61,945 bases of DNA from an uncultured Bacteroidota bacterium (GTDB lineage Bacteria > Bacteroidota > Rhodothermia > Rhodothermales > Salinibacteraceae), in contig CAJXLV010000017.1 of NCBI GenBank assembly GCA_913056185.1, forward strand, positions 1 to 61,945, given 5' to 3'. The notes below the pieces were generated by a model. It searched no databases, was not told the origin of the DNA, and saw only the letters and a program-made list of their open reading frames with translations. Shown in pieces: positions 14,053 through 37,771 of this stretch. Each line of letters begins with the position of its first letter. Position 1 is the stretch's first letter. A program made the translations under genes and the position numbers.

Positions 14053-14490
14053 ATGACCATCACGATGCTCAGAGCGAAGCTCCATCGCCTTCGCGTCACG
14101 GATGCCAATCTGTACTACCAGGGCTCCATCACGATCGACGAAGAGCTGCTCGACGCGGCGGGCCTCCTACCGTACGAAAAGGTGCAGGTGGTGAATGTAA
14201 ACAACGGCTCTCGGCTGGAGACTTACACCATCCCCGGCGAGGCAGGAGAGCGGACCGTGTGCCTGAATGGGGCGGCGGCCCGATTGGCCGAGGTCGGCGA
14301 TGAGGTGATCGTGATTGCCTACGCAGAGATGACTGCCCAAGAGGCCCAACAGCATCATCCACGAGTGGTGCACGTCGATGCGGATAACGATGTGACTCGC
14401 ACCCGCACCTTGGACGTAGCGGGCGAAGAGCCGGACCTGGCGCCGGACGGCATGGAGGATGTGCTGATTGCGGAGTCGGAGCCCAAGTGA
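14053..14490 (+). CDS. panD: Aspartate 1-decarboxylase precursor
   Basis: Pyruvoyl enzyme that turns L-aspartate into beta-alanine for pantothenate; 145 residues. The self-cleavage site is visible as YYQGSITID with Gly24-Ser25, the same numbering as in E. coli, so Ser25 would become the pyruvoyl group. Other conserved parts are MLRAKLHRLRVTDANL, VNVNNGSRLETY and LNGAAARLAEVGDEVIVIAYA. The C-terminal tail after about residue 118 is acidic and longer than in E. coli. ATG at 14053 was chosen to match the usual spacing; a second ATG lies four codons later. The stop codon TGA is the first three bases of a hairpin repeat element. Confidence 0.97.
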   Translation: MTITMLRAKLHRLRVTDANLYYQGSITIDEELLDAAGLLPYEKVQVVNVNNGSRLETYTIPGEAGERTVCLNGAAARLAEVGDEVIVIAYAEMTAQEAQQHHPRVVHVDADNDVTRTRTLDVAGEEPDLAPDGMEDVLIAESEPK

Positions 14491-14548
14491 CGTCCCCCTG
14501 GCTGAAGCCGGAGGGGGACTGCTCTTTCGTGCATCCTCGATGCTCTAA
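14488..14548 (-). repeat. Hairpin repeat element at the panD stop (element A)
   Basis: Read in the panD sense it begins with the stop codon (TGACGTCCCCCTGGC). The stem CCCCCTGGC/GCCGGAGGGGG with loop TGAA follows, then GCTCTTTCG, and it ends in GCATCCTCGATGCTCTAA. Related copies in the opposite orientation lie at 17878-17940 and 37709-37771. It may act as a transcription terminator or 3' mRNA stabiliser, although no U-tract follows the stem. Confidence 0.85.
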
Positions 14549-14841
14549 GGGGACTGCAGGAGCCCTGCGCCAGTGCGGCAGCCTCATGTTCCTGTCCGTC
14601 AGTTGTTTCTGTTATTGGAAAAGCCCTTTTGCAATCCGGGCCCGCTCAAAAACCGCAGCGGTTCCCTGGTGGGGGCGTGCGGCGGCAGGGGCCGACGCAA
14701 TTCCCATCCGCAAGCAATTCCCATCCGAAATTCGAGGATTATCGCTCGATACCCCGCCGGCGTTTCGCTATACTGGTCGGGCAGTTCCAGTCGATCCGAC
14801 GCGTCTTGCATTCCGTCAACGTCTACATACCACCTTCTGCC
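14491..14841. other. 351-bp gap between panD and the dehydrogenase gene
   Basis: The first 58 bases are the hairpin element at the panD end. A direct repeat of 14 nt (GCAATTCCCATCCG) occurs at 14697-14710 and 14714-14727, period 17. A weak -10-like TATACT lies at 14769-14774, 67 bases before the next start codon, without a good -35. Otherwise I see nothing in it. Confidence 0.6.
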
Positions 14842-15696
14842 ATGACCGTACAAACTGTCGCTATTGTGGGGGCGGGCACGATGGGGAACGGCATCGCACA
14901 TGTGTTTGCGCTGCATGGGTATGAGACCACCCTCATTGATCTCGACGAGCCGCTGCTTGATGAGGCCCGAGGCACCATCGAACAGAATCTCACCCGACAG
15001 GTCGAAAAAGACGCAATTGCCCCTGCCGACCGGGCCGATGCGCTCGATCGCCTTTCCTTCACGCCCGACACGGCGTCCGGGGTGGCCGTCGCCGATTTGG
15101 TTGTGGAGGCAGTTCCCGAGGAGCGGTCCCTAAAGGCGGAGGTCTTCGGGACGCTCGACGAGCACGCTCCCGACGAGGCCATCCTGGCGTCCAATACGTC
15201 CTCAATCTCCATCACCTGGATTGGGAGCCAGACCGACCGCCCCGATCGTGTAGTTGGGATGCACTTTTTCAATCCCGTACCCGTCATGACGCTTGTAGAG
15301 GCGGTGCGGGGGCAGCGGACGAGCGATGCGACGTACGACGTGGTGGCCGACGTGGCCGACGACCTCGGCAAACATCCCGTGGAGGTGGACGACTATCCCG
15401 GTTTTGTGTCCAACCGGGTGCTGATGCCGATGATCAACGAGGCCATCTTCTGCGTGATGGAGGGCGTCGCCGAGCCCGACGACATTGACACGGTGATGAC
15501 GCTCGGGATGAACCACCCGATGGGGCCCCTCACGCTGGCCGACTTCATTGGGCTGGATGTGTGCCTGCACATCCTGGAGGTGCTCCACGACGAATTGGGC
15601 GACGACAAGTACCGTCCGTGTCCACTCCTGCGCCGCAAGGTGACTGCTGGACAACTCGGCCGAAAGACAGGGGAGGGGTTTTTTGAATACGAGTGA
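14842..15696 (+). CDS. 3-hydroxyacyl-CoA (3-hydroxybutyryl-CoA) dehydrogenase
   Basis: NAD(P)-dependent enzyme that interconverts 3-hydroxyacyl-CoA and 3-oxoacyl-CoA, 284 residues, the size of stand-alone Hbd/PaaH enzymes. The Rossmann motif is IVGAGTMGNGIA at residues 7-18. Catalytic-region motifs are SNTSSISI, the catalytic-His segment GMHFFNPVPVMTLVEAV and PGFVSNRVLMPMINEA. NHPMGPLTLADFIGLD lies in the C-terminal dimer domain. It stands alone, so it could serve beta-oxidation, butyrate-type or polyhydroxyalkanoate metabolism. The stop codon lies inside the first unit of a 14-nt tandem repeat, so the second unit duplicates the last codons. Confidence 0.93.
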   Translation: MTVQTVAIVGAGTMGNGIAHVFALHGYETTLIDLDEPLLDEARGTIEQNLTRQVEKDAIAPADRADALDRLSFTPDTASGVAVADLVVEAVPEERSLKAEVFGTLDEHAPDEAILASNTSSISITWIGSQTDRPDRVVGMHFFNPVPVMTLVEAVRGQRTSDATYDVVADVADDLGKHPVEVDDYPGFVSNRVLMPMINEAIFCVMEGVAEPDDIDTVMTLGMNHPMGPLTLADFIGLDVCLHILEVLHDELGDDKYRPCPLLRRKVTAGQLGRKTGEGFFEYE

Positions 15697-15712
15697 GTGA
15701 ATACGAGTGAGT
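15685..15712 (+). repeat. 14-nt tandem duplication across a stop codon
   Basis: Two identical units GAATACGAGTGAGT at 15685 and 15699. The TGA in the first unit is the stop codon of the dehydrogenase gene, so the last three codons and stop are duplicated just after it. Confidence 0.9.
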
Positions 15713-15790
15713 CGCGCTCCGGCGTGAGCGTTCCGCGCAAAGCGTGCGAGGATGCGGAGACACACCCAGTCATGAGTCACGCTTCACGTA

Positions 15791-16762
15791 TCACTCGTCG
15801 TGCTCCTCGTAGGCGGCGATGATGTCCTGCACGAGGCGGTGGCGGGCCACGTCCTCGCGTTCCAGATAGATAAACTCGATGCCGTCGATGCCCTTCAGGA
15901 TGTGCTGCACCTGAATGAGCCCACTTGTGCTCCGGTCCTGAAGGTCGGTCTGGGTTACGTCCCCGGTAACGATGGCGCGGCTGTGCGGCCCGAGGCGGGT
16001 CAGAAACATCTTCATCTGGCTTGTGGTGGCGTTCTGGGCCTCGTCGAGGATGACAAATGAGGACTTGAGGGTGCGGCCACGCATGTAGGCAAGCGGCACC
16101 ACCTCCACGCGGTCCTGTTCCAGAGACTCGGCCAGTTCGTCGCGCGGCATCATTTCGCCGAGTGCGTCGTAGAGCGGCCGCAGGTACGGGGCGACCTTCT
16201 CGTAGAAGTCGCCGGGCAGGAATCCGAGCTCCTCGCCGGCCTCCACGGCAGGGCGGGACAGCACAATTTTATTGACCTCGTGGTTGTTGAGGGCCGCCAC
16301 GGCCAGCGCGACCGCGATGTATGTTTTCCCGGTGCCGGCCGGGCCGATGGTGAACAACACGTCGTTGGCCGCGGCGGACTGCACGAGCCGCGCTTGGTTT
16401 TCGGAGCGCGGCTTGATGATCTCCCCGTCGGGGGTGGAGAGGATGGGCGTCCGCTGATCCTGAAAGTCCTCCGGGCGGGTGTGGGGCGGGGAGGCCTCGC
16501 GGCCCGTGTCGAACAGTGCAAGAACTGTGTCTACGTCGTCTTCAGTGAGATGATTGTTGCGGTCGAGCAGGGTCATCATCTCGTCGAACACGCGCTCTAC
16601 GGTTTGGAGGGTGTCCGGGTCGCCTTTGAGATGCACCTCGCTGCCGCGCGCCGTGACGCGGGCATCGGGGAACGCGTTTTCGATCTTCCGGAGGTATACA
16701 TCGTTGAAGCCGAACAGCAGGAGGGGATCGGCACCGTCAATGCTCAGTGTTTTCTCGGGCAA
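15791..16762 (-). CDS. PhoH-family ATPase
   Basis: Cytosolic P-loop NTPase of the PhoH family (323 residues), linked in other bacteria to phosphate stress and RNA metabolism; its biochemical role is poorly defined. An N-terminal nucleic-acid-binding-like segment (residues 1-65, ARVTARGSEVHLKGDP) precedes the ATPase core. Walker A is GPAGTGKT at 140-147 and Walker B is FVILDEAQN at about 236-244. The conserved SRPAVEAGEELGFLPGD, GRTLKSS and GDVTQTDL are also present. This is the PhoH core type rather than PhoH2, since no PIN domain is present. It is convergent with the dehydrogenase gene and divergent from dapF. Confidence 0.94.
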   Translation of the reverse strand: MPEKTLSIDGADPLLLFGFNDVYLRKIENAFPDARVTARGSEVHLKGDPDTLQTVERVFDEMMTLLDRNNHLTEDDVDTVLALFDTGREASPPHTRPEDFQDQRTPILSTPDGEIIKPRSENQARLVQSAAANDVLFTIGPAGTGKTYIAVALAVAALNNHEVNKIVLSRPAVEAGEELGFLPGDFYEKVAPYLRPLYDALGEMMPRDELAESLEQDRVEVVPLAYMRGRTLKSSFVILDEAQNATTSQMKMFLTRLGPHSRAIVTGDVTQTDLQDRSTSGLIQVQHILKGIDGIEFIYLEREDVARHRLVQDIIAAYEEHDE

Positions 16763-16978
16763 AGGGCTGCGGGGGTCGGTGATGAGCGTGGATGATGGAA
16801 GATGCTCCGAAGGGGACGATCGGCGCTTCCGAACGTGCTCCGGGCCTCAGGGAAGAAGGTATACGGCGGGGCAGAGGGATCGTGCCGACGAGAGCGAAGG
16901 CATTTGGGGCGGGGCTGCACTCGGGGCCTCCTCTGCGGGCTCTTTTTTCGTGTTTTTTTCCTTGTGATGTGCGGCACC

Positions 16979-17881
16979 ATGGCTTCCGATACGGTCGCGT
17001 TTGTGAAGATGCAGGGCGCAGGCAATGATTTTGTCGTCGTGGATAACCGGGACTACGGCTTTTCGGAGGCAGAGCTTTCCGCCGCCGCGGAGGCCTGGTG
17101 CTCACGCCGCTACGGCGTGGGGGCCGACGGCCTCTTGGCGCTGGTGTCGCCTCGCTCGTCCGCCGCGGACTGCCGCATGTGCTACTGGAATGCGGATGGC
17201 TCGCGCGCAACCATGTGTGGGAACGGCGCCCGGTGCTTCTTCCGCTTCGCCCGTCGCCGCGGGGTTGGAGGAAGCGCCCTTACGTTCGAGACGGACGCGG
17301 GCCTGTACCGCGCCGTGCAGCCGGGAAGCGCCCCGGACACGGTGCGCTTGTTTGTCCCGGATGTGACGGACGTGCGCCCCCAGTTCCAGCTGGAGGGCCC
17401 TGTGCCCGCTGCCATCCGGGCGCTCACGTTTGTCCACTCGGGCACGGAGCACCTCGTGGCGACGGTGGACGACCTCGCGGCGGCGAAGGTAGCGAAGTGG
17501 GGGCGGCAGCTGCGCCACGATGCCGGGGTGCAACCGACGGGTGCCAATGTTAATTTTCTGGAGCTGGGACCCGGACGCGAGCTACGGGTGCGCACCTACG
17601 AGAAGGGGGTGGAGGCGGAAACCCCGGCGTGTGGCACGGGGGTTCTCGCGGCGGCGGTGGCCGTGGAACGTACGCGCCCCGAACTGGCCGCACGCGCTGT
17701 GCCGGTGCGTACGCGCGGCGGCGACCTGCGGGTGGGGCGTGCGCCCACAGACCAAGGAAAGAAGCGCTACCTGGAAGGCCCAGCCGCCGTGGTGTTTCGA
17801 GGGCAGGTGCAGCTCCCCGCAGCGTCTTCGTCCACCGCCGCTTCGCAGCGCGCCGATGCATCTCGACGGGGCTGCGATTAG
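16979..17881 (+). CDS. dapF: Diaminopimelate epimerase
   Basis: Converts LL- to meso-diaminopimelate, the last epimerisation for lysine and peptidoglycan. The protein has 300 residues. Both catalytic cysteines are present: Cys80 in TMCGNGARC and Cys218 in ETPACGTG. Other signatures are KMQGAGNDFVVVDNRD near the start, RRYGVGADGLL and CRMCYWNADGS. ATG at 16979 gives the usual short lead before MQGAGNDF; an in-frame ATG four codons upstream is possible. The last roughly 25 residues, rich in Ser/Ala/Arg, extend past the family end. The TAG stop belongs to the left edge of a repeat element, which suggests that the tail arose when the element arrived. Confidence 0.96.
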   Translation: MASDTVAFVKMQGAGNDFVVVDNRDYGFSEAELSAAAEAWCSRRYGVGADGLLALVSPRSSAADCRMCYWNADGSRATMCGNGARCFFRFARRRGVGGSALTFETDAGLYRAVQPGSAPDTVRLFVPDVTDVRPQFQLEGPVPAAIRALTFVHSGTEHLVATVDDLAAAKVAKWGRQLRHDAGVQPTGANVNFLELGPGRELRVRTYEKGVEAETPACGTGVLAAAVAVERTRPELAARAVPVRTRGGDLRVGRAPTDQGKKRYLEGPAAVVFRGQVQLPAASSSTAASQRADASRRGCD

Positions 17882-17940
17882 AGCATTGAGGATGCGCGAA
17901 GGAGCTGTAAGCCCTCTGGCTTCGGCCGAGGGAGGCGTCA
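17878..17940 (+). repeat. Hairpin repeat element between convergent genes (element B)
   Basis: It begins TTAGAGCATTGAGGATGC, whose TAG is the dapF stop, and ends GGGAGGCGTCA, whose TCA is the reverse of the PpiD-gene TGA stop. Between them lies GCGAAGGAGC and a stem of GCCCTCTGGC with GCCGAGGGAGGC closed by a TTCG tetraloop. One element therefore seems to supply both stop codons and a hairpin that could act as a bidirectional terminator. Confidence 0.88.
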
Positions 17941-20013
17941 ACGGAGCTGCGACCGGGTGTCTTCGATCGTCGCTTCTTCCTTCAGGGCTGCGAGCCACTC
18001 GGACGCCACTTGCTTGCGCCGCTGCTGCAGGAGCTCCTGGCGTAGCGTCTGCCGCTTCGCGTCGGTGAGGGCGGGCGGTGCGCTCTTCTGGGTCACTCGC
18101 ACGACGAATGCGGCATTCTCGCCCTCAATGACCTGCGAGGTCGCCCCTTCCGCAAGCCCAAACACCACGCCGGCGAAGGCAGGCTCCCGCCCGAGCCCCG
18201 GAACGCTGTTGGTCTCGAACGTGACGTCTTCCTGGGTGCGCAGGTCTGTGCCCAGCACCTCCGGCAGCGCCTCAAAGCTGTTCTGGGCCAGGGCGCGCTC
18301 CATGCGGCGGCTCTGCACCGCGCGCTTTTTCTGAAGGGCCACCTGCGGCCGGATCTGGGATTGTACCTCGCTGAACGAGCGGTAGCCTTCCGGCGTCACG
18401 TCGGTCACGTGGGCCACCACAAACTTATCGGGCAGCTCCGCCACGTCGCTGATGGCCCCGGGGGCGGCCGATTTCAGAAACTGCGACAGGGCCGGGCTTT
18501 GCCCGATGCCGGGGATGGCCGTTTGTCCCGTTTCCACCTGCACGGTCTGCACCGACAGGTCGAGGCGCTCGGCCTCATCGGCAAACGCTCCGCTCTCCTC
18601 GGCAAAGTATGCCAGGTCGCCCAGGCGGCTCTCCTTGTCGGAAAGCGTCGCCTGGCTGGGGCGTAGCGTGTAGGCCAGGTCGGCCACCTGGACGGCCTGG
18701 GAGGCACGCGCCTCTACCCGGATCAGGTGGTAGCCGAACTCTGAGCGGATGGGGCCGACGACGCGGCCCGCCCCCGTCGAGAAGACCGCCTCGCTGAAGG
18801 CGTCCACCATGCTGCCCTCAGAAAACCACCCGAGGTCGCCGCCCTGAGACGCTGACTGGTCATCGGAGTACTGGCGTGCGAGGGCAGCAAACGACGCCTG
18901 GCCAGACTCCAGGGTGTCGCGCAGCGCCTCCAGGCGCCCCCGCAGTGCGGGGTCGGGCTGGTCCGTCTTGAGGAGGATGTGGCGGGCGTGTGCGTAGTTT
19001 GTTTCGGCGGGGCGCGTGTCACGGATCTTCAAAAGGTGGGCCTTCCCGTCGCCAAAGACGGGCCCGACGACGCGACCGGGAGACGGATCGGCGTACACGG
19101 AGTCCGCCACGCGCTCATTCAGTTGGTCCGCGGTGCGGTACTCGCTCGAGAACTCTGTGTCCGAGGCGTTATTGACCAGGAAGAGAGAGTCGCTCTCCGT
19201 GGTCTGAAATCCGTCGCGCAGGTCGCTCAGATCGCTCGCAATGGCCGCCGAGTCTTCCTCGGTCGCCTGCTTGGAGGTGGTCGCGTACTCGATCGTGACA
19301 GTTTTCGCGCGCTTGAAGTCGTCTTTGTTCGCGTCGTAGTACGTACGAAGATCCGCGTCAGACACCGAAATTGAATCGTCCGGCACGCGGGCGTATCGAA
19401 GCGAGACGTACTGCGCCGTGGCGGTGGCGGTTTGGCGCTGGTGGTAGTTCTTGATGTCCTGCTCGGAGACCTGGATGGTGGCCTGCACGAGGGAGTTCAT
19501 CTTTTGCTGCCGCCGCTGCTGGCGGAGAAATTGCTCCAGTTGTAACCACTGCTGCTTGCGCTGCGGATCCTGCGCGAGATTTTGAATCAACTGGTAGTTG
19601 ATTTGGCCGGTCGAGTCGGCAAACTGCTGACGGATGAGCGGGTGGGGGTTCTCGCCAAAGACCATGTCCTCCACCTCTGCGTCGGTGACGGAGATGCCGA
19701 GGTCATCCATTTCCTGCTCACGCAGCTTTTGGTTGACGACCCGAGTGTAGGCCTGTTCGCGCAGGCGCTGCTGCAACTGTGGGGTCAGGTCCCCGCCCAG
19801 TTGCTGCTGAAAGCGCTGGCGCAGCTGCTCTAAGGTCTGCTGGTACTCCTGTCGCTCGATCGCGTCGCCATTCACCGTCGCCACATTTCGGCTTTGCTGG
19901 TTCATGGCTGAAAAGACGTCGGAATCTTGGAGGGTCCAGATGATTCCGAACGAGAGTACGAGAATCCAGAGAATCACTCCGGTGTTTTGCCGAAGTGTGT
20001 TCATCGCGCCCAT
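17938..20013 (-). CDS. ppiD: Membrane-anchored peptidyl-prolyl isomerase (PpiD/SurA type)
   Basis: Periplasmic foldase, 691 residues. One N-terminal membrane helix (VILWILVLSFGIIWTLQD, residues 13-30) anchors it. A SurA/PpiD-like N-terminal chaperone domain follows, rich in Gln, and then a parvulin rotamase domain at about residues 335-430. Parvulin motifs are ARHILLKTDQPD, FAALARQYSDD, GGDLGWFSEGSMV and EFGYHLIRVE. A second, more degenerate parvulin-like half follows (about 480-640), giving the PpiD layout. Its role would be to help outer-membrane and periplasmic proteins fold as they leave the Sec channel. ATG at 20013 or 20004 are both possible. The stop is formed by a repeat element. Confidence 0.92.
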   Translation of the reverse strand: MGAMNTLRQNTGVILWILVLSFGIIWTLQDSDVFSAMNQQSRNVATVNGDAIERQEYQQTLEQLRQRFQQQLGGDLTPQLQQRLREQAYTRVVNQKLREQEMDDLGISVTDAEVEDMVFGENPHPLIRQQFADSTGQINYQLIQNLAQDPQRKQQWLQLEQFLRQQRRQQKMNSLVQATIQVSEQDIKNYHQRQTATATAQYVSLRYARVPDDSISVSDADLRTYYDANKDDFKRAKTVTIEYATTSKQATEEDSAAIASDLSDLRDGFQTTESDSLFLVNNASDTEFSSEYRTADQLNERVADSVYADPSPGRVVGPVFGDGKAHLLKIRDTRPAETNYAHARHILLKTDQPDPALRGRLEALRDTLESGQASFAALARQYSDDQSASQGGDLGWFSEGSMVDAFSEAVFSTGAGRVVGPIRSEFGYHLIRVEARASQAVQVADLAYTLRPSQATLSDKESRLGDLAYFAEESGAFADEAERLDLSVQTVQVETGQTAIPGIGQSPALSQFLKSAAPGAISDVAELPDKFVVAHVTDVTPEGYRSFSEVQSQIRPQVALQKKRAVQSRRMERALAQNSFEALPEVLGTDLRTQEDVTFETNSVPGLGREPAFAGVVFGLAEGATSQVIEGENAAFVVRVTQKSAPPALTDAKRQTLRQELLQQRRKQVASEWLAALKEEATIEDTRSQLR

Positions 20014-20332
20014 GGGGCCGAAAAAGTTGATGAAGGAGGTGGTGGGAAGAAGGCACGGCCAGCGGCCGAGGCGAGCATTCGGGAAACAGGCTGCGGCTCA
20101 GGGCCCAGAAAGCGCCCGGCGGGCAGACTGCTCCGTAAAAGAAGGACAAATCAGTTTCTCTTTACCTTTTGGTCCAGTGAATTGTTCGCGGGCTGCTGGG
20201 GGCACGGTGCTGCTTCTTCCGTGAAGAATCGGGCGGGCCGATGGGCACATGCCTCTTCGTGGGCTGTTTGATAAACTGTAGCAGGACCATTCACCTCTTA
20301 AATCGTCTGCTCTCCCGGGCCCACACTCTCCC
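20014..20332. other. 319-bp divergent gap, no gene seen
   Basis: Lies between the divergent PpiD and MtfA-like genes and should hold both promoters. A TACCTTTTG (20163-20171) resembles the -7 box TAnnTTTG of Bacteroidota promoters on the plus strand, but no -33 TTTG is at the right distance. A run of A+T-rich sequence near 20262-20305 precedes the MtfA-like gene. No repeats or RNA gene recognised. Confidence 0.5.
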
Positions 20333-21277: not shown

Positions 21278-21298
21278 GCCTGCACGAGGGGCGCGTTC

Positions 21299-22675: not shown

Positions 22676-22712
22676 AGGCAAAATGCGTCGGCGGCCGAGA
22701 GAGGCACAAGGC

Positions 22713-26539: not shown

Positions 26540-26960
26540 ACTCCTTGGGGATCCATTGTTGCAGAGTCGTGAGCGTGAGAGGTGCCGCACCTTCCAAAAA
26601 AGGAACGCCACGGCCGAGACCGGCGGCGGCGTCGAGAGGGTACTTTCTCAAATGCGGAAAGGGTTATTCGGGGGACGAGGCGTGAAAGTTCCGTCCGTGC
26701 GAAAGAACGAGGAACTCGTGTAACGGATTGAGGATGGGCGAAGGAGCAGGAAAGGTCCCGCACGTTTACTTGCGTGAATTCGCTTCGCTCATTTGTCGGG
26801 ACATACACCTGTTGGTTTGGGGACTTTTTTCGTTGAGCGAGGCGTGACACAGTCGGTGCCAATGGCTGTTTGTGCTGTCTGACGAGGCAAGCGGCAGTGC
26901 GGAGGCCAAAAACCTCCCGACTCCGGCGGCAGTCGGGACAAGCCGTTAGCCGGGGGAGCG
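26540..26960. other. 421-bp gap holding a long repeat
   Basis: Between the greA start and the LD-carboxypeptidase stop, both on the minus strand. Bases 26540-26720 should hold the greA promoter, but I see no convincing boxes. The rest is the second long repeat copy. Short open frames in it share the peptide QVYVPxNERSEFT with copy 1, but the differences between copies are not concentrated at silent positions, so they are unlikely to be genes. Confidence 0.65.
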
Positions 26961-26963
26961 TCA
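26721..26963 (+). repeat. Long dispersed repeat, copy 2, with hairpin-element edges
   Basis: It opens with GGATTGAGGATGGGCGAAGG, as in the short elements. The middle (about 26748-26905) is the inverse of copy 1, including the 35-nt block with GTGCTGTCTGACGAGGCAAG. It ends CGGGGGAGCGTCA, where TCA is the reverse of the LD-carboxypeptidase TGA stop. It looks like a short hairpin element whose stem region has been replaced or expanded by a module of about 200 bp. Confidence 0.85.
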
Positions 26964-27884
26964 GTCGGTCGCTACCACCGACGCGGCCGAGAGCGAGGCA
27001 CTGGAGGAGGAGGCGTGGAGACGGCCCGTCACGCCGATGGGCACGGAGCAGCGGGGCAGGCAGTGGCCGTACGGCAGGTTGTGCACGACCGGGTAGTCCC
27101 GGTGGCCAAAGTAGTCCTCAACGACTGCGGAGAGCGGTCGGGCGGGCGCGTCCGAAGGGGGAAGAGAGAAGCTGCCGAGCACCACCCCGGCGACGCGATC
27201 CAGGACGCCCGCGTGCTCGAGGTGGGCGAGCATGCGATCAATGCGGTAGGGGGCCTCGGCCACGTCCTCCAGCACCAGGAGGGCGCCGTCGAAGGAGGGG
27301 GCGAAGGGCGTCCCGATGAGGCGGGTGAGCACCGACAGGTTGCCGCCCAGGAGCGGGCCTGTGGCCGTGCCGGGAACCAGGGTATGCAGCGGTGCTTCGA
27401 ACGGCTCGGTCAGGGCGTGGGCGGTGCCCATGCTCCAGTTGCGAAACGACTCGAGCGTCGCAGCGTCCGCTGTTGTCCATTCGGTAACCACCGGGCCGGA
27501 CAGGCCGGACCACCCGGCCCGGGCATAGAGGGCTAGGTGGAGGGCCGTGATGTCGCTGTACCCGACCAGCAGCGTGGGATGGGCACGGGCCTGTGCCCAG
27601 TCGATGTGGGGCAAGAGGCGGAGGCAGCCGTAGCCCCCACGTACGCAGAAGACAGCGCGGATCTCGGGATTGAGGATGGCGCGCTGCAGCGCTGCTGCGC
27701 GGTCGGCATCGGGCGCGGCCAGGTATCCGCACGTCATGCCGGGTTGCCAGGCGCTGCGCACATCGTAGCGGGTGCGCAAGCGGGCCACCCCCTCTTCATA
27801 CACGTCGAGATCGCGGGGCGGGCTGGCCGGGGCGACGACAGCTACGGGAGCACCGGGCGAGAGGGGTGGGGGACGAGCGACCAC
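26961..27884 (-). CDS. ldcA: LD-carboxypeptidase (S66 family)
   Basis: Serine peptidase of the LD-carboxypeptidase/MccF family, 307 residues; LdcA removes the terminal D-alanine from muropeptide tetrapeptides during wall recycling. The catalytic triad is visible: Ser110 in VGYSDITALH, a Glu in LEDVAEAPYRIDRM, and a His in LPYGHCLPR. Other family parts are VAVVAPASPP, CVRGGYGCLRLLPHIDW and GTATGPLLGGNLSVL. No signal peptide is seen, so it acts in the cytosol. It lies downstream of the LapA-like gene, with a short tandem repeat in between. MccF-like immunity is the other option but is less likely without a microcin locus. Confidence 0.93.
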   Translation of the reverse strand: MVARPPPLSPGAPVAVVAPASPPRDLDVYEEGVARLRTRYDVRSAWQPGMTCGYLAAPDADRAAALQRAILNPEIRAVFCVRGGYGCLRLLPHIDWAQARAHPTLLVGYSDITALHLALYARAGWSGLSGPVVTEWTTADAATLESFRNWSMGTAHALTEPFEAPLHTLVPGTATGPLLGGNLSVLTRLIGTPFAPSFDGALLVLEDVAEAPYRIDRMLAHLEHAGVLDRVAGVVLGSFSLPPSDAPARPLSAVVEDYFGHRDYPVVHNLPYGHCLPRCSVPIGVTGRLHASSSSASLSAASVVATD

Positions 27885-30333: not shown

Positions 30334-30341
30334 GGACGGCC

Positions 30342-31019
30342 TCAGAGGTATCGCTCAAAGAACGAGGACGCGAAGGTGAAGTCCCACCACTCCTCCAGGC
30401 TGCCGGTGCCGTCGAGGAGAAGATGGGTTGGGGCCGGGTGTGGGGTGTGGAGGCGGTCCCAGAGGGATTGCAGGCGCGCCCGCTCGCGCCCGTCGGCCGT
30501 GTGGGGCACGCCGCCGGTTAGGAGGACGGTAGGGGTGGGGGCTTCTTGCCAGGTCACGTGGACGGCGTAGGGCCACCAAAGCGCATTGGGGTAGAGGCGC
30601 GCCAATCGCCGAATTGCGGCCTGGTCGAAGGCCCCGAGGCCTTCGTCGGGGGGGTGGAGCCTGCCCTCGGGAAAGTAGACCAGCACCGTCTGCGGGCACG
30701 CCTGGAAGCGACGAGCAGTCCGGCGCAGCGTAGCGGCACGGCGGGTGGGCTCGTCGGGGGGGAACGGCTGTGCGCCAACGGCGGCGAAAAAGGGAAAGCG
30801 GTCCCACTCTGCCATCCAGAGGGTGGGCGGGCGCCCGAGGCGGGCCCGAAATAGCAGCCAGGCAAGGTGCCCGTCGTAAAAGTGGTGGTGATTGGCGTAG
30901 GCGATGACAGGGCCGTCCGGCAGGTCCGGCGGCCAGGGCCCGACCCAGGTCACCCGGCGAAAAGCCCGGTAGAGGTCGAACCAAAGGAGCGCCTCCACGA
31001 GCCGACGCATAAGAGCCAT
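30342..31019 (-). CDS. Lysophospholipid-type acyltransferase, probable carotenoid-glycoside acyltransferase
   Basis: PlsC-family acyltransferase of 225 residues. The catalytic HX4D is His44 to Asp49 in ANHHHFYDGHLAW, and motif III is VYFPEGRLHPP with Glu118. WMAEWDRFPFFAAVGAQPF fits motif II. No strong membrane helix is seen, so it is peripheral. In this cluster the likely acceptor is the sugar of a glycosylated carotenoid, giving an acyl-glycoside like salinixanthin (as CruD does in green sulfur bacteria); ordinary phospholipid acylation is the alternative. It lies 42 bases downstream of crtB. Confidence 0.85.
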   Translation of the reverse strand: MALMRRLVEALLWFDLYRAFRRVTWVGPWPPDLPDGPVIAYANHHHFYDGHLAWLLFRARLGRPPTLWMAEWDRFPFFAAVGAQPFPPDEPTRRAATLRRTARRFQACPQTVLVYFPEGRLHPPDEGLGAFDQAAIRRLARLYPNALWWPYAVHVTWQEAPTPTVLLTGGVPHTADGRERARLQSLWDRLHTPHPAPTHLLLDGTGSLEEWWDFTFASSFFERYL

Positions 31020-31061
31020 GAGGAGGAACGAATGAGCACAACAGACGGCGGGGGGCGAGGC

Positions 31062-31973
31062 TCAGGCCGCGGCAGAGAGGCGGTTCTTGCGACGCTGGTA
31101 CCCATCGTAGACCAGCAGCCAGAGCTTTCGGCGCAGGGGCACGTATGCACGACGCTGGAGATTGTCGTATTCGTTGGCCCGCACTTCATTGAGAATTTCT
31201 CGGTACATGCGAGCGGCGGCCCGGATCCCGTAGCGGGAGCGGAGCGGCAGGGCCGAAATGCCGTCGAAGCTTTGTTGGTAGTACCGCTCAGCAGCCTCCA
31301 TCGCACGCTCCAGAAGGGCAGGGTACTCGGGCGCCACGTGAGCGTTGCGGAGGGCCTCGGGAGAGACCGTGTGGGCGTCGAGCCACTCCTGCGGGAGGTA
31401 GACGCGATCGAGCTCCTCGATGTCTTCCCCGACATCGCGCACAATATTTGTAATTTGCATGGCGATGCCAAGGCGGCGGGCCGCAGGCTCAAGGGCCTCG
31501 TGGCGGTCGTCCGGGGCGAGGAAGGGCAGCATCATGGCGCCCACACTTCCGCCCACGAGGTTGGAGTAGTCGATGAGGTCTTGCGCCGTAGTGATGGGCC
31601 GCGCTTCGAGGTCCCAGGTTGCCCCTTCGATCAGTTCATAAAGGGGACCAGGCGGGAGGGAGGCGTGCGCGTGGACCTCCGCGAGACGGCGCCACAGCAC
31701 CGACTCGTCGGGCGGATGCCCGTTGAGGGTAGCATCCAGGCGGGTGCGGACGGCGTGCACCTCGTCCAGAGCGTTTTGGCGGCCCACCTCCAGCACGCGC
31801 TGATCAGCGATGGAGTCGACGCGGCGGCAGAAGAGGTAGAGGGTGGCGACCGACATTTGCACCGACCGCGGCAGCAGATAAGCCGCGAGGGAAAACGTGC
31901 GGGAATGATACCGGAACGACTCCCAGATCCACTGATCTTCGTCGGCGTAGCCGTCGAGCGAGAGGGTGGGCAT
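31062..31973 (-). CDS. crtB: Phytoene/squalene synthase family, phytoene synthase
   Basis: Condenses two geranylgeranyl diphosphates to phytoene, the first committed step to carotenoids; 303 residues. The two Asp-rich substrate motifs are VDSIAD (Asp53 and Asp57) and RDVGEDIEE (Asp180 and Asp184). Other signatures are YHSRTFSLAAYLLP near the start, YSNLVGGSVGAMMLP, RVYLPQEWL and YYQQSFDGISALP. Within the trans-isoprenyl synthase family it resembles CrtB more than HpnC/HpnD, and its neighbours (cruF upstream, glycosyltransferase and acyltransferase downstream) settle it. Confidence 0.95.
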   Translation of the reverse strand: MPTLSLDGYADEDQWIWESFRYHSRTFSLAAYLLPRSVQMSVATLYLFCRRVDSIADQRVLEVGRQNALDEVHAVRTRLDATLNGHPPDESVLWRRLAEVHAHASLPPGPLYELIEGATWDLEARPITTAQDLIDYSNLVGGSVGAMMLPFLAPDDRHEALEPAARRLGIAMQITNIVRDVGEDIEELDRVYLPQEWLDAHTVSPEALRNAHVAPEYPALLERAMEAAERYYQQSFDGISALPLRSRYGIRAAARMYREILNEVRANEYDNLQRRAYVPLRRKLWLLVYDGYQRRKNRLSAAA

Positions 31974-32013
31974 GGGGCGAGGCGGCGTCCGGGACAGCGA
32001 TGCGGGGAGGCGG

Positions 32014-32883
32014 TTACGTACGGAGCAGCGCGATGGAGCGCTTGAGGGCGTCGGGGTTGGCCCACCAGAGAAGCAGGAACGGGACGAGGGTGGTTACGCT
32101 CCCAATGAGGGCGGCCAGGTACACGTCCCGAAGAAGGCAGATGGAGAGCGGGAAGATGCAATTGAGGGCGTATACCCAGGGCGCCCACTCGTTCTGGATG
32201 GGCCGGTCGCCCGCAATATACTCGTAGCCTACCAGAATCACGAACGTGACCACAGCCCAGCCGCCCCAGTTGCTAAGCGGCATGCCGAAGAAAAAGCCCT
32301 CCACGTCGTACGTCCAGAAGGGGAACGCCTCGTTCATCGCCGGGTCCAGGGACACGTCCCACAGCACCATAAAGAGCGTGCCCAGGAAGAGCGCCGGCCA
32401 GCGGCGGGCTGTGACGCGCCGCGCCAGGTCGAGCGAGATGATCGCCATTGCGAACCAGGAGGGCGGGATGAAGTAGGGCACGTGCCCGGCGAGTTTCGGC
32501 CCGAGCCACTGCGTGTACTCGTAGCCTCCAAACGGCAGCGCAACGCCTCCCAGGGTGAGCCAGCCCGTAGTGCCGATCAGTTCACTGGCGCCGCCGATGA
32601 GGCAGCCCCATCCCGCAATGAGAATCATCCGCGTCCGGCCCAGGATGGGGCCGTACATCAAAAGGGGAAGCAGCGCCAGCATGGTCATAAAGGTCCACGT
32701 GGGCGTCTTCACGAGCTTCGTGTACATCGGCCCGAAGAAGGACATCGTGGATGGCACCAGCCGGAGCAGCAGCATGCCGGCGATGCTAAATGAGATGGCC
32801 CCGACGAACAGCCAGAGGGCGTATTGAAAAAGCAGGGCCTGGTTGCCCTCGACAGTGGGCCGCGGGGGATCTGGACTCGACAT
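32014..32883 (-). CDS. cruF: Carotenoid 1,2-hydratase (CruF family)
   Basis: Integral membrane protein of the CruF/bisanhydrobacterioruberin-hydratase family, 289 residues with about seven to eight membrane helices. CruF adds water to the psi end of a carotenoid, giving the tertiary hydroxyl group next to which a sugar can be placed. Family segments seen are GGASELIGTTGWLTLGGVALPFGGYEY, WDVSLDPAMNEAFPFWTYD and FFFGMPLSNWGGWAV. ATG at 32883 starts before the first helix; the frame is open 22 codons upstream. It is the first gene of the minus-strand carotenoid run; a 9-bp inverted repeat lies in the divergent spacer upstream. Lycopene cyclase and phytoene desaturase are not in the window. Confidence 0.92.
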   Translation of the reverse strand: MSSPDPPRPTVEGNQALLFQYALWLFVGAISFSIAGMLLLRLVPSTMSFFGPMYTKLVKTPTWTFMTMLALLPLLMYGPILGRTRMILIAGWGCLIGGASELIGTTGWLTLGGVALPFGGYEYTQWLGPKLAGHVPYFIPPSWFAMAIISLDLARRVTARRWPALFLGTLFMVLWDVSLDPAMNEAFPFWTYDVEGFFFGMPLSNWGGWAVVTFVILVGYEYIAGDRPIQNEWAPWVYALNCIFPLSICLLRDVYLAALIGSVTTLVPFLLLWWANPDALKRSIALLRT

Positions 32884-33031
32884 GTAAAGCGGGAGGAAGC
32901 TCGGGGGGTGGAAAAAGCGGGCCGGGCGGCTGCGGATCTGAAGACGCACTCGGGAGTGGGGGCGGCCGGTGGAGGACGTTCACAAGATCCGAACGGCATG
33001 CCGCAAACCGAACCGGGGACAGAAGGTTTGA

Positions 33032-33059
33032 GAACTGTCGTAAAAGTTCGCGACAGTTC
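33032..33059. promoter_or_regulatory. Perfect 9-bp inverted repeat upstream of the carotenoid operon
   Basis: GAACTGTCG at 33032-33040 and its exact reverse complement CGACAGTTC at 33051-33059 are separated by ten A/T-richer bases. The site lies in the 211-bp spacer between the divergent cruF and WbqC-family genes, 149 bases before cruF and 36 before the WbqC-family gene. A TTTG lies just before it (33027-33030). It could be an operator for a dimeric repressor or a hairpin in the WbqC leader. Confidence 0.55.
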
Positions 33060-33094
33060 CAGGCCTCCCCACACCACCAACCACACGTAGGGGC

Positions 33095-33835
33095 ATGACT
33101 CCTGCTCGCATTGCCGTTGCGCCCCCGGCGTATTTTCCGCGGCTGGTGTACGTAGCGCTCATTCAGCACGTGGACCACTTTATTCTTGCCGACACGTTCC
33201 CGTTTCGCCAGCGATCGTTCCAGGACCGTAGCAAGGTCCGCAGTCCGCAGGGGTGGCACTGGATTTCCATTCCGGTCGTGGGCCATCGGGAGGGGGCGCC
33301 GCTGCCGGAGGTCGAGATCCGGACGGCGGGCCGCTGGCGCGAGAAGCACTGGCGCTCGTTTCTCTACAACTACCGCACGACTCCGTACTTCGAGTTTTTT
33401 GAAGACTCGTTCCGTCCTTTCTTCGAGCGGGCGTGGGGGCGGCTCGCGCCCTGCCTCTGCCGCTCGGTCCAGCTGACCGCGGATTTGTTCGGGGTCCGGA
33501 CCCGGATCACCCGTGCTTCAGCGCTGAGCGGAACGCCCTGCACCTACGCGGACATTGTGACCGCGGTGTCGCCGGATGCCCTTGTGGTGCTCGATGCGTC
33601 TGAGCCCGTAGACCTTCCCGGCAATGTCTCCGTTTACGAATGTACGTACGAGCAGGAGCCCTATCGACAAAATTTTGAGGGATTTGTGCCGGGCATGTCG
33701 GCCCTCGATCTTATGTTCAATTACGGACCCGAAGCCCGCCGCGTTCTCACCGATGGGCGCACCGTTGCGTCGCATTCCCGGGAGGCCCCGGGGTCGCACC
33801 CGGGGTCGCAGCCCACGGGCTCCTCGCAGGCGTAA
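33095..33835 (+). CDS. WbqC-family protein
   Basis: 246 residues with the WbqC-like layout. Family segments are [19 protein letters not shown] at the start, [53 protein letters not shown] and the late [14 protein letters not shown]. WbqC-like proteins are often found in polysaccharide and modified-sugar loci but their reaction is not established. The C-terminal tail ([19 protein letters not shown]) is low complexity. It is divergent from the carotenoid operon and 61 bases before dcd. Confidence 0.85.
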
Positions 33836-33896
33836 TTCTTCCCTGCGTGTGTCGGCAGTGACGACTGTACCGTTTCCTTCCTTGACGCCTCTCCCC

Positions 33897-34451
33897 ATGA
33901 TTCTTCCCGACCGTCAGATTCGCACCCTCGCCCAGGACCACGGCATGATTGCCCCCTTTGTGGACGGCCAAGTTCGTGACGAGGTGGTCAGCTACGGCCT
34001 CAGTTCGTTTGGGTACGATATGCGGATCGCGGGTGAGTTCCGGGTCTTTACGCCCAACATTTACAACAGCGTGGTCGACCCCAAGCGCATCGACGAGCGC
34101 GCGCTGGTGGAGTACGAGGTGGATGACCACATTCTGATTCCCCCCAATTCCTATGTGCTGGGGCGGTCCATCGAGTACTTTCGCATGCCCGACGATGTGT
34201 TGGGCTTGGTGCTCGGAAAGTCGACCTATGCCCGCTCCGGCATCATCGTCAATGTGACACCTCTGGAGCCGGGGTGGGAGGGGCATGTTACGATTGAGGT
34301 GGGGAACGGCACATCCTTGCCCGCCAAGGTGTACGCCGAAGAGGGAATCGCGCAGGTTGTCTTCCTGCACGGGGACCCGCCGGAGGTGTCGTACGCGGAG
34401 AAGGAAGGGAAATATCAGCATCAGCAAGGCATCACACTGCCCCGCCTGTAG
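33897..34451 (+). CDS. dcd: dCTP deaminase
   Basis: Deaminates dCTP to dUTP for thymidylate synthesis; cytosolic, 184 residues. The conserved core [36 protein letters not shown] and [12 protein letters not shown] carries the catalytic Glu and the nucleotide-binding Ser-Arg pair. The C-terminal [12 protein letters not shown] is the segment that closes over the nucleotide triphosphate. ATG at 33897 gives [11 protein letters not shown], the usual start. Whether it is mono- or bifunctional (dCTP deaminase plus dUTPase) cannot be told by eye. A small membrane-protein gene follows 41 bases later. Confidence 0.96.
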
Positions 34452-34492
34452 CTCGTTGTGTTCATTTGTCTCTTCCAACCAGACGGCCTGCC

Positions 34493-34777
34493 ATGACTGC
34501 CGCCTCCCCCGACCGGTCGCCTCATTCCTGGCGCCGATGGACCCTGGCGATTGCGCTTCTGGCATTCTTCGGGATTGTGCTGTGGACGGTGATCAATCCG
34601 TACCGCGGCCAGCGTTTCGAGAAGGTGCCCCACGGCAGCCACGTCCACTACGTTCCCCGCGACCGCAACCCGGATGCGCCCATCAGTCGGTTTCCGACGC
34701 AAAAGCCGGCCGCCGACGAACGCATCACGCCGGAGGGACGAGTGGTGCCCATGCGCACCTCGGAAGCAGCGCCCTGA
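34493..34777 (+). CDS. Small single-pass membrane protein, unknown
   Basis: 94 residues, family not recognised. Residues 15-35 form one helix (TLAIALLAFFGIVLWTVI) after a basic Arg/Trp stretch, so the N-terminus is probably cytosolic. The outer part contains YRGQRFEKVPHGSHVHYVPRD, a basic segment. ATG at 34493 is preferred to the TTG at 34466. It follows dcd closely (41 bases), and its 3' end is convergent with the ZIP transporter gene. Confidence 0.65.
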   Translation: MTAASPDRSPHSWRRWTLAIALLAFFGIVLWTVINPYRGQRFEKVPHGSHVHYVPRDRNPDAPISRFPTQKPAADERITPEGRVVPMRTSEAAP

Positions 34778-34798
34778 CCCCCGCACTGTGCGCGGCGG

Positions 34799-35632
34799 CT
34801 ACCCGAGCGCCACGTCCATGATCATCATCACGGTAAAGCCGCCCATCACGCCCAGCGTGGCGAGGTCCGTGTTGCCGTGGCGCTGCGACTCGGGAATGAG
34901 CTCTTCCACCACGACGTAGACCATGGCGCCGGCCGCAAACGCGAGGGCGTACGGCAGCAGCGGCTGCACGCTCAGCACCGTCACCGCCCCAATGGCCGCC
35001 GAGACGGGCTCTACCGCTCCGGAGAGCTGTCCGTACCAGAAGCTTTTGGGCGCCGATACGCCTTCGCCCCGCAGCGGAAGCGAGACGGCCACGCCCTCGG
35101 GGAAATTTTGCAGCCCGATGCCCAGTGCCAGCGTCAGGGCGCCGGCCAAGGTGGCCTCGGCCGCCATGTCGAGTGGGATGGCGGCGGCGCCGAACGACAC
35201 GCCCACGGCCAGCCCTTCGGGCACGTTGTGCAGCGTGATGGCCAGTACCAGCAACGTGGCGCGGCGCCAGGAGGTGGCCAGCCCTTCTGCCTCCGCCCGG
35301 CGCGCCCCGGGGTGCAGGTGGGGGAGCACGGCGTCGGCGCCTCGCAAAAACAGCCCGCCGAGCACGAACCCGACCGCGGGGGGCACCCACACCGTCACGC
35401 CCTGGGCCGCGGCCATCTCAATCGACGGAGCAAGCAGCGACCAAAAGCTGGCCGCTGTCATTACTCCTGCCGCAAATCCCATCATGGCGTCCAGCAGCCG
35501 CTGATTGACTTGGCGCGTGAGAAACACCACCGCGGCCCCGAGGGCCGTGACCGACCAGGTGAAGCCGCCTGCCAGTATCGATTGGGCAAGGGGAGAGAGA
35601 TCGCGAAACCAGGGTGCAAGATCGAGGGACAT
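34799..35632 (-). CDS. ZIP-family metal transporter (GufA/ZupT type)
   Basis: Divalent metal importer of 277 residues with eight predicted helices. The two metal-path motifs are [14 protein letters not shown] in helix IV and [14 protein letters not shown] in helix [17 protein letters not shown] lies near the end. The layout is that of the GufA branch, whose substrates include Zn2+. The cytoplasmic loop contains [11 protein letters not shown] and is short in histidines. ATG at 35632 is preferred to the one two codons earlier, but both fit. Confidence 0.93.
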
Positions 35633-35909
35633 GTGCACGGGGGCGAAAAAAAGATCAACCCATCAAGCCATGGTGCGGTGCCCGTAAGCAGCCCGAGTGT
35701 GGGGAATGCGCCGGGGCACGGGGGGCTACTGGACGCAGGCTTCAGGTCGGTGACGTATTGGGACGACACCGGAGAAACGATAGGTCGCCCGCGCGGCTCC
35801 GCGGCCTTCTCGTCGGCGGCCTTCTGGATGGAGAAGGCGCAACTTCCGGCCTGCCCCCTCGTACGAACCGCTGTTCTGTACTGGCCAAGCGCATCTCTTT
35901 TTTGCTCCC

Positions 35910-36257
35910 ATGAGTCTCTCTCTTCCCGACGGCGAGTATCTTTTGACGGACGTGCAGTGGCGGCGGCTCGACCGCGACAAGTCCGCGCGCCCGCTCCACG
36001 GATTCACCACGGGCCACCTGGAGGTGAGTGGGGGGCGCGCCTCCATAGAGGCGCGGTTCAACGACCAGTTTCTGTCCAACCGGCTGAGCGATCTGGACGA
36101 GCAGGGCATCCCGATTGCGCTTTCCGTGCAGGTACTGGAAGCGGAGCAGCCCGTCGCGCTTTCGTGCGAGGCGCCCACGCTGGTTCGGGCCGGCGCCTCC
36201 TACCGGCTGGAAGGGGAGGGGACGTTCGTTGCGTCGGTGCACCCAGAGTCTGGGTGA
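35910..36257 (+). CDS. Hypothetical protein, 115 residues
   Basis: I do not recognise it. It starts MSLSLPDGEYLLTDVQWRR and has mixed beta-strand character with no cysteines in motifs, signal peptide or membrane segment. A central SGGRASIEARFNDQF and a late CEAPTLVRAGASYRLEGEG suggest a small beta-sandwich or DUF-type domain. Codon use matches the neighbours. It is convergent with msrA, 35 bases away. Confidence 0.6.
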   Translation: MSLSLPDGEYLLTDVQWRRLDRDKSARPLHGFTTGHLEVSGGRASIEARFNDQFLSNRLSDLDEQGIPIALSVQVLEAEQPVALSCEAPTLVRAGASYRLEGEGTFVASVHPESG

Positions 36258-36292
36258 GACGCGGTCTTCCTGCGGGCTTCCTACGGGGGCGC

Positions 36293-36985
36293 TCACTGTG
36301 GCGACGGGAGCGGGGCGTCGGTCCCGGCGGCCGCGCCCCAGATGTCTTGCAAGCGGGCATCCCGGCCACATCCCTCCCGGTAATTTTTGTACCGGCGAGG
36401 GTTCTTCGTGTAGTAGTTCTGGTGATATTGCTCCGCCGCATAAAACGCATCAAACGGCACCACGTCCACCGCAATTTCCTGGTCGAACTGCCCCGCCACC
36501 TGCGCCCGTGACTGCAGGGCCAGTCGGTGCTGGCGGGCGTTGTGGGAGAAAATTGCCGGTCGGTACTGCGAGCCCCGGTCGCAAAACTGCCCGCTGCCGT
36601 CGAAGGGGTCGACGTTGTGCCAGTAGATGCGCAGCAGGCGCTCGTACGACACCTGGGTGGAGTCGTAGAGGACCTGAACAACCTCAGTGTGCGAGGTGTT
36701 GCCGCGGGCCACCTCGCGGTAAGAGGGATCCACTTCTGTCCCACCGGAAAAGCCGGAGACGGTCGCTGCGACGCCCTCGACCGCATCGTACGGAGGCTCC
36801 ATGCACCAAAAGCACCCGCCCGCAAACGTGGCGGTATCGCTCACGGCTGCCGGCAGGGCGGGGGGCGATGCCGAGCGAGCGTCGGCAGAGTCGGGGGCGC
36901 CTGGGGCGTAGAAGAACAGCCCCCCGATCACGAGACTGAGGAGCATGAGTCCCACGATCCAAGAGGAGCGAAGAGATATGTGCAT
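36293..36985 (-). CDS. msrA: Exported peptide-methionine (S)-sulfoxide reductase
   Basis: Reduces methionine-S-sulfoxide in oxidised proteins; 230 residues. ATG at 36985 gives a membrane/signal segment (WIVGLMLLSLVIGGLFFY) and a Pro/Ala linker before the catalytic domain, so it acts outside the cytosol. The nucleophile is Cys58 in FAGGCFWCMEPPYD, with Cys61 as a possible resolving cysteine. Other family marks are GFSGGTEVDPSYREVARG, HTEVVQVLYD, and YHQNYYTKNPRRYKNYREGCG near the end, with a C-terminal cysteine. Exported MsrA repairs envelope proteins. The surrounding genes are unrelated. Confidence 0.95.
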   Translation of the reverse strand: MHISLRSSWIVGLMLLSLVIGGLFFYAPGAPDSADARSASPPALPAAVSDTATFAGGCFWCMEPPYDAVEGVAATVSGFSGGTEVDPSYREVARGNTSHTEVVQVLYDSTQVSYERLLRIYWHNVDPFDGSGQFCDRGSQYRPAIFSHNARQHRLALQSRAQVAGQFDQEIAVDVVPFDAFYAAEQYHQNYYTKNPRRYKNYREGCGRDARLQDIWGAAAGTDAPLPSPQ

Positions 36986-37184
36986 GTGGGGCGGGGAGGG
37001 AGAAGGTTTGGAAGGGCTTGGTACGAACAAACACAGGTGCCTGTACGCCGTAGCGACTCGAACATTCCCTTGTCTGCGTTTGGCTCCGGGATGTCACACG
37101 CCCGTTTCCATGCAGGATTCCGGGGCGTGGGCCTGGGGAGGGCTCCGATGCGTACCGAAAGAAGAGAGAAAACGACGAAATGGG

Positions 37185-37691
37185 CTACAGGGCCCCTCGT
37201 TCTGCCTCCAACAGTAGCGTTTCGTCTGCGAAGGCGGCGGCCCGGAAGTAGCTGCATGCCCCTCGCGGCGGGTCGTCGTACTGAGCAGTGTGCAGTACAG
37301 CAACGCCACTCAGGGAGGCGCTCGCCTCTTCAATCGCATCGTCGATGTAGAGGGGGATCAGGATCTCGTCCATGGCCGACTGCAAGTCGCCCAGCACGTC
37401 GCCGAACTGGGTGCGCGCCCCAGGCGGGCGGCGGTCCTCCACCGTGAGGTCGTTCCCACTTGCCCGGAGGGCACACAGTGCCGTGGCGTCGTCCAGGGTA
37501 GGCGGGAGAAGCGTCACCGTGTGGACTGTTTCGGCGTCGCTGCGGGCGGGCGCGGCAGGCATCTCGTGGGCCGTGTCGGGACCTACGAGGCGAAGGGCGG
37601 GGCGCTCAGTCGCGACTTCAATGTAGGGGGGCTGTGCGGGAGCAGTGGACGTCTCCGTCCAGGTGTCGTCCTGCGGAGTGTAGTATCCCAT
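37185..37691 (-). CDS. Hypothetical protein, 168 residues
   Basis: Family not recognised. ATG at 37691 starts MGYYTPQDDTWTETS; the frame runs further upstream through a repeat element, which is not credible coding. The sequence is acidic with no signal peptide, membrane helix or clear motif. The middle part (DDATALCALRASGNDLTVE) and the end (SYFRAAAFADETLLLEAERG) look like folded alpha/beta protein. The gene lies downstream of the aldo/keto reductase gene, from which it is separated by hairpin element D. Confidence 0.6.
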   Translation of the reverse strand: MGYYTPQDDTWTETSTAPAQPPYIEVATERPALRLVGPDTAHEMPAAPARSDAETVHTVTLLPPTLDDATALCALRASGNDLTVEDRRPPGARTQFGDVLGDLQSAMDEILIPLYIDDAIEEASASLSGVAVLHTAQYDDPPRGACSYFRAAAFADETLLLEAERGAL

Positions 37692-37708
37692 TGGAGAAGG
37701 GCGGTCCG

Positions 37709-37768
37709 TTAGGGCATTGAGGATGCGCGAAGGAGCAGTCCCCCCTCCGGCGTTCGCCGGGGGAGAAG

Positions 37769-37771
<3 letters not shown>
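37709..37771 (+). repeat. Hairpin repeat element at the aldo/keto reductase stop (element D)
   Basis: Begins TTAGGGCATTGAGGATGCGC and ends GGGGGAGAAGTCA, whose TCA is the reverse of the reductase TGA stop. The stem CCCCCTCCGGCG/CGCCGGGGGAG around a short loop is the strongest of the family. Within the reductase transcript it lies just after the stop codon, as in panD. Confidence 0.9.

Follow-up and report, generated by a model that had tools for sequence, protein, structure and literature searches.

IS608 (ISHp608, from Helicobacter pylori) inserts 3' of the tetranucleotide TTAC, with AAAG as the guide, and its right cleavage site TCAA has the guide GAAT (PMC5934647). Reduced relatives of such elements are known: Haloquadratum walsbyi carries palindrome-associated transposable elements (PATEs) that consist of termini only, including 52-bp forms of HqIRS46 and ISHwa23, and it was suggested that the 52-bp forms spread as such (PMC3119063). 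In Borrelia, one IS605B end overlaps the last 8 nt of a coding region (PMC2775950), and the tag of repetitive extragenic palindromic (REP) sequences has been likened to a guide (PMC8266576, PMC3733652). We report on a hairpin of about 60 nt that closes genes in a stretch of 61,945 nt (the window), contig CAJXLV010000017.1 (C17) of a 3.27-Mb assembly in 79 contigs (GCA_913056185.1, here G000) from an uncultured member of the Salinibacteraceae. This hairpin is very probably a non-autonomous, terminal-only PATE of an IS200/IS605 insertion sequence (IS) with IS608-type chemistry.

The evidence for this assignment comes from a full IS in a related genome (G003), in which left end, tnpA, tnpB and right end follow one another. 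It begins directly after TTAG with AGTATTGAGGATGCGTGAAGGAGCAGTAAACCCTCCGG and finishes with GAAGAATCTCCCGGCTTCAGCCGGGGGAGAAGTCAA, that is, it runs from AGTATTG to GTCAA, and a subterminal hairpin is present at both ends. Its TnpA is a Y1_Tnp protein (PF01797, 130.1 bits) and matches the ISHp608 transposase 2a6m (E 2.8e-26). Written in the direction of the IS, the short element follows TTAG with [AG]G[TC]ATTGAGGATGCGCGAAGGAGCAG, one hairpin and GGGGGAGAAGTCAA. Its halves match the ends of the full IS: the left end (AGTATTGAGGATGCGCGAAGGAGCAG and the left hairpin arm) is fused to the right end (the right arm and GAAGTCAA), and the core is lost. Long copies possess a further, outer left-end stem, GCGAAGGAG...CTCCTTCGC plus co-varying versions. 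Under a strict 7-letter rule this stem forms in 24 of the 33 long copies but in none of six short ones, as compared with 18 of 836 control pairings made from differing arms of other rows. The short form retains an orphan half of this stem, and the conserved GCTCCTTCG pointed out in the first-pass annotation of the window is that half. As in PATEs, the short copies have an IS605-type palindrome, no transposase gene and no target duplication.

In two relatives (L073, L086), the left end lies directly 5' of a 133-aa IS200-type transposase gene, which is followed by tnpB; in other relatives, tnpB-like frames stand beside the left end, and several have no such frame in the 1.5 kb examined. A Y1 transposase match was detected in six of 13 genus genomes, and both Y1 genes of G003, as well as the better one of G007, follow TTAG-type left ends. 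Integron attC sites and group II intron ends had been considered as candidates and were dropped once the IS ends were recognised.

In the window, the tail GCATCCTCRATGCYCTAA, with up to three mismatches allowed, has three matches as compared with 0.13 expected, and the three copies placed at 14488, 17878 and 37709 by the first-pass annotation are all there. Rfam models at gathering scores had zero matches in the window. The features are as follows, with the IS orientation given as the strand of each element.

14487..14544, IS orientation minus: short element at panD, left and right end fused (covariance model, sequence)
14545..14548, plus: target CTAA (TTAG on the minus strand), kept in the left flank of the panD copy (empty-site rule)
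14488..14490, plus: panD TGA stop, element-derived or native (frames, Pfam, orthologues)
17882..17941, IS orientation plus: short element at ppiD/dapF, ends GTCAA (covariance model, alignment)
17878..17881, plus: target TTAG, with TAG at 17879-17881 as the dapF stop (frames, Pfam)
17938..17940, minus: ppiD TGA stop from the right-end tip; CGC TAA in G005, CGT TGA here
37713..37772, IS orientation plus: short element at the aldo/keto reductase gene, ends GTCAA (covariance model, alignment)
37709..37712, plus: target TTAG (CTAA on the gene strand) of the aldo/keto reductase copy
37769..37771, minus: aldo/keto reductase TGA stop from the tip (frames, Pfam, orthologues)
26724..26964, plus: longer degenerate copy, about 240 bp, left boundary approximate (covariance model, 23.7 bits)
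11832..11848, minus: possible right-end remnant at the Na/Ca exchanger stop, unproven (motif, Pfam)

The TGA edge of each copy had been read as the stop codon of the adjacent gene, and reading frames and Pfam matches bear this out for ppiD, the aldo/keto reductase and panD. There is a reservation for panD: the right-end tip of this copy (L057), which coincides with the stop, is TCAC (GTGA in gene sense) instead of TCAA, so that the edge is GTGAC and not TTGAC. The frames also confirm the TAG of dapF, which comes from the opposite edge of the second copy. The ldcA gene does end on such an edge, a tip TCAG that yields its TGA (26961-26963), but the edge belongs to the longer degenerate copy, whose left end is TTAC-like with a guide-like GGAAAGG (compare L277). 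The same edge had also been claimed for the Ca2+ exchanger gene, where 11832-11847 is one mismatch away from the right-end motif; the right-end pattern with at most one mismatch has three matches in all, two of which are true copies, vs. 0.02 in shuffled sequence. No further part of an element was found at this gene, and the place is absent from the covariance-model matches; the edge would be at most a remnant. A second small hairpin, GCAT..ATGC, had been proposed as a conserved part as well and was abandoned: 14 of 21 aligned copies lack ATGC, which is present in seven, the others having ATAC (10) or other letters (4).

These 21 copies were found in the genome by pattern and aligned (consensus TTGACTTCTCCCCCGGCnAACGCCGGAGGGGGGACTGCTCCTTCGCGCATCCTCAATACTCTAA), and a covariance model was built from them with the structure supplied by hand. 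On G000 the model finds 84 places at E<=10, 22 of them above 50 bits, and 21 of these 22 are its own source sequences. Matches at E<=0.01 occur in 16 of 60 genomes, the model's own included, all of one family, and no match was obtained in the 33 genomes that represent other families of the order. In G003, left ends are crowded within about 110 kb (C1:205-317 kb; L097-L101, L283, L284): of the 19 matches to CAATANTNTAA in that genome, 17 have positions from 205 to 318 kb, pointing to an island of mobile elements. In G000, CAATANTNTAA has 36 matches, and eight of them lie less than 600 bases from a contig end (e.g., L264, L267, L273, L275, L276, L278, L279, L280); full-length copies are thus probably places where the assembly is interrupted, so that their number is underestimated. 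A separate repeat of about 115 bp, present at six other places in G000 and at two in G003, lies beside copy L051 in its left flank (positions 808-925 of the flank sequence used as query).

The short elements lie directly 3' of TTAG, and in the family most left ends with a guide motif follow the IS608 code. We gathered 84 left-end rows by the motif TTANANTATTG alone, disregarding the guide; nine of the 18 short TTAG copies of G000 escape this motif, and some of the 84 rows are chance matches. A guide motif is present in 52 rows, and 47 of the 52 obey the code, as TTAC with AAAG (21), TTAT with AAAA (19) or TTAG with AAAC (7). When guides and targets were permuted, the mean was 18.6 and the maximum 33, and none of 100,000 permutations reached 47; some rows are orthologous or repeat copies of one another, so that the independent events are fewer. 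The five misfits are L091, L291, L272, L047 and L294; for all but the first, the motif is possibly not at the guide position. At the other end, the right tip TCAA occurs with the guide GAAT in the right end of the G003 IS and in L077, L283 and L313. Five TTAC-type left ends (L099, L100, L283, L289, L296) have an additional block, CACTC..AAAAGCACTCGCT..GCAGCG, ahead of the guide, which is still AAAG. In the 18 short TTAG copies of G000 (among L040-L060), AAAC is replaced, mostly by C-rich letters, and most other left-end letters are kept.

If the chemistry is that of IS608, TnpA would grip both ends as single strands through their hairpins; TTAG would be read by the left guide AAAC, and the right tip TCAA by the guide GAAT. 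Insertion would take place 3' of TTAG with no target duplication, which on the opposite strand means entry just before CTAA. A gene that ends NNC TAA would then become one that ends NNT TGA, the TGA of the tip replacing TAA, and because NNC and NNT are always synonymous, the last amino acid would be kept. For a gene on the opposite side that ends NNT TAG, the stop would sit in the retained target. With one stop from the tip and the other from the target, a single insertion could provide the ends of two convergent genes, and ppiD/dapF is such a case. Selection would remove the copies that fall within genes, leaving those at stops and in spacers.

Empty sites in relatives bear on this stop swap. 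The joined flanks of eight of 24 prepared sites were searched in 13 genus genomes; this approach was used for the empty sites, a protein search with dapF having given a best identity of 51% among the 80 loci listed. Five sites have an unambiguous gene on their right side, and for these we aligned all 32 listed orthologous places. The element is absent and the stop falls at exactly the codon of the tip in all of them (the aldo/keto reductase copy L040, 8/8; the ppiD copy L056, 5/5; L055, 8/8; L044, 10/10; L050, 1/1), so insertion leaves the protein length unchanged. CTAA itself is found at five of the 32 places (L225, L228, L238, L239, L241), for example as CGC TAA in G002 and G010 at L040, and again after CG in G005 at L056. 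These five orthologues, together with the CTAA that the copies still have on their far side, point to CTAA as the state before insertion. In addition, CTAA occurs in six of six relatives at the tRNA spacer copy L053, and the gene to the left of L051 keeps the position of its stop in all 11 relatives, four of which have CTAAA. In two orthologues of L044 (L326 and L327, in G010 and G003), the last two codons are CAT TGA; the next letters, CGCTCCGG, are similar to a right-end tip, with no element after them, and may be a decayed copy or chance.

To compare placement with that of the target letters, we kept the 18 short TTAG-type copies among 30 covariance-model loci; the 12 that were left out are four of the TTAT type, four whose left edge is degenerate and four long forms that consist of a left end only. 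Genes at the copies were called with a home-made codon score at a threshold of 25. The TGA of the tip is the stop of the right-side gene in seven copies (L040, L041, L044, L050, L055, L056, L057), and the TAG of the target is the stop of the left-side gene in six (L047, L049, L051, L055, L056, L060). Altogether, 11 of the 18 are at a stop and none is inside a gene. Three of the copies left out (L062, L063, L066) likewise provide the TGA stop of a gene, and a TAG stands to the left of L054. As a reference, 311 kb of the genome contained 163 CTAA sites outside elements, with 111 in genes, 17 at NNC TAA, one at NNT TAG and 34 in non-coding sequence. Right-side stops are as frequent as expected (7/18 copies vs. 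17/52 non-genic sites, p 0.77). Random placement relative to stop codons, named beforehand as the outcome that would speak against the repeat family, is not what we observed, and loss of in-gene copies combined with the letters of the target explains most of the gene-end bias. The earlier suggestion of a small mobile element that targets gene ends comes close, this being an IS200/IS605 derivative inserted 3' of TTAG with letters that fit stop codons; nothing suggests that gene ends are recognised.

A broader reading would be that the TTAG target and the TCAA tip have been kept because they are silent at TAA ends, making this a retargeted IS608 group with stop codons as a safe harbour and guide-less 60-nt forms mobile in trans. 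We regard this combined reading as quite unlikely, and mobilisation of the short form in trans by complete elements is a guess. Several observations count against the main reading, an IS608-type derivative with a stop swap. The guide motif is missing from 32 of the 84 left-end rows, which include nine short TTAG copies (seven from G000, plus L070 and L088, the latter having AAAC in another setting) and the TTAC rows L273, L275 and L280, which carry GTAACGG; the TTAT row L276 carries this same altered guide of TTAC rows. All 18 short TTAG copies of G000 have lost the AAAC guide and have a single hairpin each, so that the classical two-hairpin reaction is insufficient for their spread as short forms. 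The sole Y1 transposase gene found in G000 (L110, C21:3948-4298) is open and encodes 133 aa, but its left end is degenerate and the tnpB frame has just 97 aa. As for the stop swap, 27 of the 32 orthologues have no CTAA at the place and nine of the 32 end in TGA without an element. The six panD orthologues all end at varying places, with no conserved stop, and three of them show ATGA or GTGACG; given this variation and the GTGAC edge, the stop of panD may be native. Finally, left-side TAG stops are in excess (6/18 vs. 1/52, p 0.0008, a post hoc comparison), which the loss of in-gene copies and the target letters do not account for.

The strongest rival concerns how the short form arose, and leaves the identity of the family untouched. 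The short copies could be immobile relics, each of them a full IS that lost its core by recombination between the similar end hairpins, and we give this close to an even chance. Core deletions down to 52 bp are documented in the Haloquadratum text (PMC3119063), left-end-only and longer copies exist here as well, and the AAAC guide is gone from all short TTAG copies of G000. The sequence GCATTG, considered as a mark of a short lineage, was rejected as such, as the long left ends L065 and L095 also carry it. Speaking for spread is a changed foot, GTCCCCCC, which is common to six unlinked short copies (L040, L041, L042, L051, L052, L066, of which L040 and L041 are nearly identical) and is found in no other of the 57 copies examined; this points to one short ancestor that spread. 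Yet C-rich feet of other spelling occur in the long ends L095 and L054, so convergence on GTCCCCCC is possible, and the assembly may also lack full copies.

Alternatively, the hairpins may be kept as structures of mRNA 3' ends, as stabilisers or terminators, with mobility explaining their origin alone. We consider this unlikely, although many copies stand directly after stops. The first-pass annotation had listed terminators among the possible roles, and this found no backing: the three short copies of the window have no U-tract after the hairpin and no terminator-like site (the scan left out the longer copy at 26.7 kb), and seven of the 18 copies are at no stop. It had also held that the stems differ in sequence and stay paired. 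The alignment supports this weakly, with 86.0% pairing in the alignment vs. 84.1% in shuffles (10/500 as high) and a covariation score of 0.107 vs. 0.078; as proof of selection on the RNA we rejected covariation as weak, since 9 of 500 shuffles reach the score. Both-side changes are few, four in 228 cells, and two of these come from the two long copies in the alignment. When folded in gene sense, two of the three copies do better than most shuffles (z -2.3 and -1.8), and the third does not (z -0.3). Where the parent has its guide, pairing with the other arm is now seen in 14 of 17, 16 of 18 (13 by G-U) and 11 of 19 short copies; compared with the parent end, the foot of the hairpin has gained pairs, mostly through changes to G. 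Such gains would favour a role of the RNA if they reflect selection for a longer stem; they could equally be template-switch repair of an imperfect palindrome. Lastly, single hairpins spread by a domesticated transposase, as in the system of REP sequences and REP-associated tyrosine transposases (RAYTs), would fit a lone dispersed hairpin outside genes and a Y1 transposase relative in the genus, but we hold this to be very improbable, as the foot of the consensus hairpin carries neither a GTAG nor a CGTC tag and the tnpA genes examined (L073, L086/L097) lie within IS elements bounded by the two halves of the repeat.

Seen as a terminal-only IS derivative, the hairpin provides an exact rule for harmless settling at gene ends, in which the target CTAA and the tip TTGA swap stops in frame. 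The same letters predict that a stop is restored at TAA ends by every IS608-like element whose target is TTAN and whose tip is TCAA. Annotators may misread such edges as conserved gene-end signals. The family also presents natural changes of guide and target, which were previously engineered in IS608.

With respect to known systems, REP sequences and RAYTs have in common with our elements dispersed extragenic hairpins tied to Y1 transposases (PMC8266576, PMC3733652), and differ in their GTAG/CGTC tag and domesticated transposase, where we find fused IS ends. The stem loops of IS605B on Borrelia plasmids are lone IS605 end hairpins behind lipoprotein genes, with neither a stop-swap rule nor a guide code described in the available text (PMC2775950). 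The PATEs of Haloquadratum are similar in being IS605-type, ends-only elements of about 50-60 bp whose palindromes were fused by core deletion, with no target duplication and suspected mobility (PMC3119063); ours are bacterial, about 60 nt long, have TTAG, TTAT or TTAC targets and make use of stop codons, and no stop-codon passage in the accessible part of that paper is about such elements. The replacement of NNC TAA by NNT TGA was not found in what we covered of the open-licence literature on IS605-type ends (including PMC2775950, PMC3119063, PMC7290912, PMC3733652). With IS608 the family shares a tetranucleotide read by a guide, subterminal hairpins, a homologous TnpA and the TTAC-AAAG and TCAA-GAAT pairs (PMC5934647); it differs in its three natural guide-target pairs, in the absence of genes from the elements of the window, and in the single hairpin of the short form. 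The kind of element is already known, and the silent stop swap and the three natural guide-target pairs, which appear undescribed in the open-licence literature covered, seem worth reporting.

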